A DNA stretch of 64,000 bases from an uncultured Flavobacteriaceae bacterium (GTDB lineage: Bacteria > Bacteroidota > Bacteroidia > Flavobacteriales > Flavobacteriaceae): positions 248,001 to 312,000 of the forward strand of contig CANMSH010000005.1 of the NCBI GenBank assembly GCA_947500525.1, given 5' to 3'. Positions within the stretch are counted from its first letter, which is position 1, and the number at the start of each line of letters is the position of its first letter. Positions 6,621-33,126 of the stretch are shown here, one piece after another. A program made the translations under genes and the position numbers. The notes under the pieces were generated by a model, which searched no databases, had not been told where the DNA came from, and saw only the letters and a list, made by a program, of their open reading frames with translations.

Positions 6621-7775
6621 TTATTTGGAAAGTAAAATGCTCACAGCATTACCACCAAAACCAACGGCATTGACAAGAATTTTTTTGAGTTGTTTTGGTT
6701 GTTGTTGCTTGGCTACAAAAGGAACATCGATTGCTTTTTGGTATCTTAACATGAGTAATGCAAATTCTATACTTAGCATTCCCGAAGCTCCGAAAGTATG
6801 TCCTAACTTCCACTTATTGGTAGTCAAAAAAGGAATTTTGTTACAAAAAATCGCAGAAATTGCTTTAAATTCTGATAAATCACCCTTCTTTGTACCCGGT
6901 GCATGCATCACAATTACATCCACATCATTTGGATGAATTTCTCCTAATGCCATCTTCATAGAACGTTGAAAGCACGAGGCTTCCGCAGAAATTGAGGTGT
7001 TATGTTCTAATATTTCGGTAGCATACCCAACACCCTCTATATAACCCAAAGCGTTCTCTTTTCTTCCATATTCTAAACAAGCAATGCTTGCTCCTTCACC
7101 TAATACCATGGTATTGTATTTTTTGTCAAGATCAAAAGCTTTACAGGGGTATGTATCATTATTTTTCGCATACACCTTTAACGCCCGCATTTGTGCAATT
7201 GTAAATGATGTTAATGGCGCTTCACTCCCTCCTACCAAAAACTTATCGGCCATACCACTCTGTATCCAAGCCACACCATTTAGTAAGGCATGAAGCGCGG
7301 TAGAACATGTAATCGAATGACTAATTTCTGGACCTTGGGTTTGCAGATCATGCGCTACCCAAGAAGAAATATTTCCCAGGGTAGTAGTTGGGGAAGTCAA
7401 GGTTTTTGCCTCCTTATCTTTCAAAAATTGTTTGTGATAGGTTTCAAATAAACCAGTGGCACCTCTTGAAGAGCCGATATTTACACCAAAATTATCGGTA
7501 CTGTCCCAACCTGCTTGATGCACCGCGTCTCTCGACGCATGGATAGCGAATAGTACAGAATCATCTAAATTTTTATACTTCTGATCGGAGTTTTTTAACG
7601 AGATGATTTTTTTCTTTCCTTCTGAGGTTAACATAGCAACAAAGGCCTCCTTTGCATCAAAATTTTTGGCTGTTATATAATGTTCACTATCTTGATACTT
7701 TTCCCAAGCTTCTTCTAAAGAAAGACCTAGAGGTGAAATAGAACGAATAGCGGAAATAGAAATTGGTGCTTTCAA
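6621..7775 (-). CDS. Beta-ketoacyl-ACP synthase-like enzyme (KAS II / FabF type)
   Basis: A 384-residue thiolase-fold condensing enzyme with the full Cys-His-His triad: Cys157 in SITCSTALHAL, His291 in VMHAPGTKKGD, His326 in KWKLGHTFGASG. It is slightly shorter than FabF (about 410 residues). The start is a TTG: an in-frame TAA lies two codons upstream and the next Met is residue 48, inside the fold. It sits between the bioA side of the biotin genes and the flotillin operon, so it may act in making the pimeloyl chain rather than in bulk fatty acid synthesis; this is inference. General fatty acid or secondary lipid synthesis is the alternative. Confidence 0.88.
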   Translation of the reverse strand: MKAPISISAIRSISPLGLSLEEAWEKYQDSEHYITAKNFDAKEAFVAMLTSEGKKKIISLKNSDQKYKNLDDSVLFAIHASRDAVHQAGWDSTDNFGVNIGSSRGATGLFETYHKQFLKDKEAKTLTSPTTTLGNISSWVAHDLQTQGPEISHSITCSTALHALLNGVAWIQSGMADKFLVGGSEAPLTSFTIAQMRALKVYAKNNDTYPCKAFDLDKKYNTMVLGEGASIACLEYGRKENALGYIEGVGYATEILEHNTSISAEASCFQRSMKMALGEIHPNDVDVIVMHAPGTKKGDLSEFKAISAIFCNKIPFLTTNKWKLGHTFGASGMLSIEFALLMLRYQKAIDVPFVAKQQQPKQLKKILVNAVGFGGNAVSILLSK

Positions 7776-32856: not shown

Positions 32857-33048
32857 TTATTCTTCTTTTGCTTTTAAGCCTTGCACATACTGTGCTTTTT
32901 GAACTTGCTTACGCTTGTTTACTGAAGGCTTCGTAAAGTGCTTACGATCACGCAATTGCTTCATTGTTTTGGTTCTGTCGAATTTTCTCTTAAAACGCTT
33001 TAACGCTCTATCGATATTCTCACCGTCTTTTACTGGTATGATTAACAT
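32857..33048 (-). CDS. rpsU: 30S ribosomal protein bS21
   Basis: A 63-residue protein (MLIIPVKDGENIDRALKRFKRKFDRTKTMKQLRDRKHF and following) of the 30S platform. In Bacteroidota ribosomes bS21, with bS18 and bS6, sequesters the anti-Shine-Dalgarno tail of 16S rRNA (published for Flavobacterium johnsoniae). This gene has a strong Shine-Dalgarno sequence seven bases before the ATG, a rarity in this window, so autoregulation by bS21 level is likely. The start at 33048 is fixed by that site and by homologues; a TTG at 33099 belongs to the promoter. Confidence 0.97.
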   Translation of the reverse strand: MLIIPVKDGENIDRALKRFKRKFDRTKTMKQLRDRKHFTKPSVNKRKQVQKAQYVQGLKAKEE

Positions 33049-33055
33049 TGAATGG

Positions 33056-33062
33056 CACCTCC
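33056..33062 (-). promoter_or_regulatory. Strong Shine-Dalgarno site of rpsU
   Basis: GGAGGTG on the minus strand, within GAAGGGAGGTGCC, is complementary to the 16S rRNA 3' tail for seven bases and is spaced seven bases from the ATG. It is the clearest ribosome binding site I found in the window. Confidence 0.88.
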
Positions 33063-33096
33063 CTTCATAAGTTCTATATTTATTTGTTTTGGGCTG

Positions 33097-33126
33097 CAAA
33101 TATACGAAGTTATTTTACAGCAGCAA
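33097..33126 (-). promoter_or_regulatory. rpsU promoter
   Basis: On the minus strand TTG (33126-33124), 19 bases, then TATATTTG (33104-33097). The leader is about 40 bases, long enough to hold the Shine-Dalgarno. Confidence 0.75.

Follow-up and report, generated by a model that had tools for sequence, protein, structure and literature searches.

A conserved start codon overlapping the extended Shine-Dalgarno sequence of rpsU in a flavobacterial clade and its possible role in a two-start switch

Introduction

In Flavobacterium johnsoniae, ribosomes that lack bS21 favour the mRNA of rpsU, as shown by reporters, purified ribosomes and depletion (McNutt 2023, PMC9976891). The same paper predicts bS21 autoregulation for ~80% of Flavobacteriales by two criteria, names pairing energies below -13 kcal/mol as a hallmark of rpsU, and presents bS21-less ribosomes as a clear example of specialised bacterial ribosomes. 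The autoregulation model is repeated in a 2024 review (PMC10931766). The native F. johnsoniae rpsU leader is predicted to be only 25 nt long. In vitro, ribosomes with a truncated bS21 are less active on mRNAs without a Shine-Dalgarno sequence (SD), and the complexes of wild-type ribosomes with rpsU mRNA are unusually stable and give a single toeprint; in cells, SD-less reporters barely changed upon mutation or depletion of bS21 (PMC9976891). AUG is avoided near starts in this organism (PMC6847099). In the model of McNutt 2023 (PMC9976891), the anti-SD is sequestered in a pocket made of bS21, bS18 and bS6.

The excerpts of McNutt 2023 (PMC9976891) contain no mention of an upstream start codon. 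An upstream open reading frame (ORF) before a Bacteroidota rpsU was likewise not found in titles and abstract openings and may have been noted in Jha et al. 2021 (PMC7797042) or in supplementary figures; the passages available from PMC6847099, PMC10783764, PMC12054373, PMC13009471, PMC10931766 and PMC8710568 hold no statement about such an ORF.

The rpsU locus described here resembles the F. johnsoniae system in the extended SD before rpsU, much stronger than anything found at other sampled starts, in the promoter-like element just upstream, in Tyr54 of bS21, and in the canonical CCUCC core of the 16S tail in its genus. It differs from the published description, as far as the excerpts go, in an 8-codon ORF that runs from the 5′ end of the SD to the rpsU start, and in a leader that exceeds 25 nt, provided that the transcript begins directly after TTTG. 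Occlusion or translational coupling by overlapping upstream ORFs is a general bacterial mechanism. Like these, the ORF described here is short with a stop that overlaps the next start; unlike them, it has the SD of the downstream gene within it, and the pair of starts would match two ribosome classes.

The rpsU locus and its leader

The window, a stretch of 64,000 nucleotides from an uncultured Flavobacteriaceae bacterium, encodes bS21 on the minus strand (rpsU, 32857-33048). The protein consists of 63 residues; among solved structures its best relative is chain 7jil_z, the bS21 of entry 7jil. Residue 54, where a tyrosine is one of the published sequence signs of the autoregulation, is a tyrosine in the window protein, as it is in each of the 214 bS21 sequences retained for the leader analysis.

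Read along the minus strand, the leader has the order TATATTTG-CAGCCCAAAACAAATAAATATAGAACTT-ATG-AAGGGAGGTGCCATTCA-ATG-TTA. A direct pattern match identified a promoter-like element (33097-33126) consisting of TTG, a 19-base spacer and TATATTTG, which we take to be a promoter motif of the Bacteroidota type. The pattern occurs seven times in the window, compared to 1.97 matches expected by chance, and the sequence places the probable transcription start a few bases after TTTG. The A-rich leader that follows (33069-33096) precedes an upstream ATG, whose context is like that of an ordinary SD-less start. This ATG opens an ORF of eight codons (33042-33068; ATG AAG GGA GGT GCC ATT CAA TGT TAA, encoding MKGGAIQC). 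The G of the upstream ATG (33068) is also the first G of the extended SD (GAAGGGAGGTG, 33056-33066), and the stop codon of the ORF overlaps the rpsU start, ending inside codons 2-3 of rpsU (ATGTTAA). The upstream ATG is ruled out as the true start of rpsU, being 20 nt away and out of frame. A hairpin that pairs the SD with the C-rich stretch following the promoter was also considered; this stretch sits at the inferred transcription start or upstream of it, and no clear signal emerged from the accessibility predicted for eight leaders.

Strength and rarity of the Shine-Dalgarno sequence

The initial annotation had noted GGAGGTG seven bases before the rpsU ATG and no such site at the other genes inspected. 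The motif is present as described (33062-33056, minus strand, with the ATG at 33048) and forms part of a longer match of 11 bp to the 16S tail, with one G-U pair. Its pairing with the tail ACACCUCCUUUCU is predicted at -19.6 kcal/mol (RNAduplex). The tail was taken from three genomes of the same genus, with the 16S identity confirmed by Rfam for the two that were submitted; the window's own assembly has no match to either of two 16S 3′-end patterns.

Other starts are far behind. Among 367 first-ATG ORF starts in a sample of 464 kb (the window and twenty 20-kb stretches), the strongest after rpsU reaches -12.1 kcal/mol (window position 7634, minus strand) and the next -9.0 kcal/mol. The former was discarded as the second-best SD start, since the sequence concerned, AAAGGAGG, precedes an ATG internal to an ORF that is ketosynthase-like by its translation. 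SD-like pairing (-3 kcal/mol or lower) is rarer at starts (52 of 367) than in a mock window (102 of 367), a depletion also reported at F. johnsoniae starts (PMC9976891). An assembly-wide scan for GGAGGTG-N3-8-ATG, which covers ATG starts only, returned 69 matches at 68 sites. Besides rpsU there are 67 such sites, 66 of which fall within open stretches of 100 codons or more on one of the two strands, while the remaining one (L008) opens 12 codons only. The rpsU SD is thus exceptional in this genome. The claim that other genes lack a comparable SD is borne out by the sample and the scan, and the refuting test set beforehand, a look for many equally strong sites elsewhere, brought no refutation.

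The initial annotation had also predicted, from the same layout, that a shortage of bS21 turns on its own gene. In support of this, the pairing lies far below -13 kcal/mol (RNAduplex here, free_scan in the paper), rpsU is the clear winner among the sampled ORF starts (the paper's ranking is among ribosomal protein genes), and Tyr54 is present. It is very likely that bS21 autoregulation operates at the window rpsU. The mechanism had already been published, however (McNutt 2023, PMC9976891), so that the window rpsU is a new instance of a known system, and the overlapping upstream ORF had been missed.

Conservation of the upstream start codon

Leaders of relatives were fetched by bS21 protein search, best bS21 matches first, from the window's genus (g1) and from three genera (g48, g131 and g34) chosen because a member already showed the upstream start codon. 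The tree of XerC and identical leaders group g48 with Lutibacter and g131 with Tenacibaculum, and tie a further genus, g26, to Lutimonas. All 77 leaders from the four genera have a start codon (ATG, TTG or GTG) exactly 20 nt upstream of rpsU, and each of the 77 upstream ORFs consists of eight codons and ends over the rpsU start. All 15 genomes with a bS21 match were read in g1 (15 ATG), 30 of 38 in g48 (29 TTG and one GTG), 30 of 37 in g131 (27 ATG, two TTG and one GTG), and both in g34 (two ATG). TTG is usually the weaker start codon. Seven of the 77 genomes (L111, L116, L247, L248, L256, L264 and L285) were already known to have the start codon and the other 70 are new, with leaders within one genus not being independent of each other.

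Eighty named loci of the family, taken by bS21 similarity only, comprise ten with the start codon (seven ATG, two GTG and one TTG) and 70 without, 66 of the latter reading AAG at this position. A matched search of 397 family genomes, with a pattern that required TTTG upstream and an rpsU-like start, found A/G/T-TG in 34 genomes and CTG in none. The codon lies at 20 nt in 28 of the 34 and at 17, 19 or 21 nt in six, as read from the matches listed. Another family search covers part of the matches in 297 of the 397 genomes. Three loci were left out of the leader counts: L196, which reaches a contig end and has no rpsU, and L229 and L241, where the wrong start had been called. The 20-nt spacing is also present without an ORF, in 39 AAG leaders.

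A FastTree phylogeny of the neighbouring XerC places the genera that carry the start codon in one clade (support 99), which has it in 44 of 45 tips, some of which were picked for having it; the sole exception is L074 (AAG). Scattered gains are seen elsewhere on this tree; five of the tips concerned form another group (support 100), and each of them had been picked for the start codon. Five loci with no usable XerC (L086, L107, L193, L215 and L227) are excluded. A second tree has 87 tips, two of 89 having been dropped for missing XerC, and includes ten named leaders and L214 taken for their NTG, as well as L074 without NTG. On this tree one change is counted at the T of NTG and six at the N, where A, T and G replace each other but C never appears; each of the 14 columns upstream of NTG has between 8 and 30 changes. 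The column just before NTG is C in 13 of 87 tips. The start codon is therefore conserved beyond the neighbouring bases that are unpaired with the 16S tail, with L074 as the one exception. A reading of NTGA in which TGA is the stop of an earlier ORF is unsupported, as the window's inferred leader has no preceding ATG, and would leave the absence of C unexplained.

Pairing does not account for this conservation. The 16S tail ACACCTCCTTTCT was found in the three genomes of the window's genus, in one of g26 (Lutimonas-like) and in two of g131 (Tenacibaculum-like). It has U opposite the T, where an A would pair, and hence the conserved T is not explained by pairing. The T of NTG costs the terminal pair, with a predicted energy of -19.6 compared to -20.3 kcal/mol with A. 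An altered 16S tail that pairs with the T is rejected for g1, g26 and g131, all six genomes reading CACCTCCTTTCT; the g48 and g34 genomes searched gave no 16S match, which limits the rejection to those three genera. We conclude that the upstream NTG is probably under selection as a start codon.

Start context and leader length

A context weight matrix, derived from 109 unambiguous starts of the window's genome only, shows the A-rich start context for which F. johnsoniae is also known. By this measure the upstream ATG falls in the 64th percentile when set against the 109 starts, in the 99th against internal ATGs and in the 95th against intergenic NTGs. Every one of the 109 reference starts has a higher score than the rpsU ATG. 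Median scores of the upstream codon are 3.15 in g1, 2.98 in g48, 1.99 in g131 and -1.95 in g34, the last being above only 1% of starts, compared to -1.23 at the equivalent place in the 70 named leaders without the ORF (77 versus 70 leaders, Mann-Whitney p = 1.6e-16, for sequences that are not independent). This difference in context goes along with leader length: the median distance from TAnnTTTG to the rpsU ATG is 46-51 nt in the four genera, where the motif was found in 50 of 77 leaders (only six of 30 in g131), compared to 35 nt in the 70 leaders without the ORF.

Possible roles of the upstream start

Three observations made here, a strong and rare SD, a conserved upstream start codon and the context of that codon, suggest a model in which the upstream ORF would be translated and its translation would repress rpsU. 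bS21 would help to hide the 16S 3′ tail, and bS21-less subunits would expose the tail and initiate on the extended SD, such that a shortage of bS21 would raise bS21 synthesis, as shown in F. johnsoniae and inferred here. In the clade, the SD seems to have acquired a second start codon at its 5′ end. The SD-blind, bS21-replete ribosomes would prefer this upstream start because of the A-rich context there, which is absent at the rpsU start. By initiating, translating eight codons and terminating over the rpsU AUG, they would cover both the SD and the rpsU start, and this occupancy would keep rpsU low. The bS21-less ribosomes, which are weaker on SD-less starts in vitro, would dock on the SD instead. 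Two ribosome classes would then tend toward two overlapping starts on one mRNA, which could make the switch sharper.

The division of labour, in which the upstream start serves bS21-replete ribosomes and the SD serves those without bS21, has in our judgement slightly less than an even chance. Since SD-less reporters barely changed in F. johnsoniae cells and wild-type ribosomes form stable complexes on rpsU mRNA, the split between the classes would not be clean. Repression of rpsU by occlusion is a tentative assignment for the role of the upstream start; ribosomes translating the upstream ORF, which spans both the SD and the rpsU start, should block initiation at rpsU, unless terminating ribosomes reinitiate. 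For the reading as a whole, a ribosome-composition switch on one mRNA that is conserved in the clade of Lutimonas, Lutibacter and Tenacibaculum lineages, we estimate a probability of roughly one in three.

The published bS21 autoregulation might also be all that operates here, with the upstream NTG a chance feature, passed on by descent, at the 5′ end of the SD where pairing frays, and its translation without effect. Such an accident would come easily, since AA stands before the G of the SD in 88 of 94 leaders without NTG, so that a single A-to-T change makes ATG; the T shifts the predicted energy by merely 0.7 kcal/mol, and the F. johnsoniae mechanism was demonstrated with its own short native leader (PMC9976891). 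Against this, conservation of the unpaired T is close to that of the paired SD bases amid much more variable upstream columns, the first base of the codon drifts among the three bases that leave a start codon and avoids the fourth, and AUG is otherwise avoided near F. johnsoniae starts (PMC6847099). We give the accident a substantial minority chance.

Translational coupling, by which replete ribosomes, having translated the upstream ORF, would start again at the rpsU AUG to supply basal, SD-independent bS21, seems unlikely. It would agree with the stops of the upstream ORFs, all of which lie over the rpsU start, and with the very poor SD-less context of the rpsU start alone, because of which replete ribosomes might otherwise make little bS21. 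However, the overlapping stop follows from the 20-nt spacing and the N-terminus of bS21, lineages without the ORF (the 70 named leaders) manage uncoupled, and in vitro binding of wild-type ribosomes to the F. johnsoniae rpsU mRNA was good (PMC9976891). Occlusion is favoured over coupling only modestly.

If the upstream ORF works as proposed in the two-start model, one leader would read out both ribosome classes at once. A single-base change in a reporter could then show whether ribosome composition decides the choice of start site, with both kinds of start, SD-less and SD-led, on the same natural transcript as a convenient internal control.

Variant leaders and paralogues

Codon 5 of the upstream ORF (33054-33056 in the window) encodes alanine in 76 of the 77 peptides. 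Its first and second bases change once and twice, respectively, and its third base 17 times (columns +12 to +14). As these bases are conserved although the C is unpaired with the 16S tail, a coding constraint is possible. In two leaders (L200 and L212) the upstream ATG is in frame with rpsU with no intervening stop, and could add seven residues (MKGGGKD) to bS21. The two g34 leaders (L247 and L248) also have an SD-like sequence before the upstream ATG (median -7.5, best -9.1 kcal/mol), which results in tandem SDs.

The g34 genomes have second bS21 genes (L249 and L250), whose leaders lack an SD and whose proteins keep Tyr54; with no SD, these paralogues would escape the feedback. Further second matches in the searches indicate that some other relatives also have a second bS21 paralogue. 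Finally, a 3.4-kb contig filed as Candidatus Pelagibacter (L089) carries an rpsU and leader of the Flavobacteriaceae type and is probably mis-binned.
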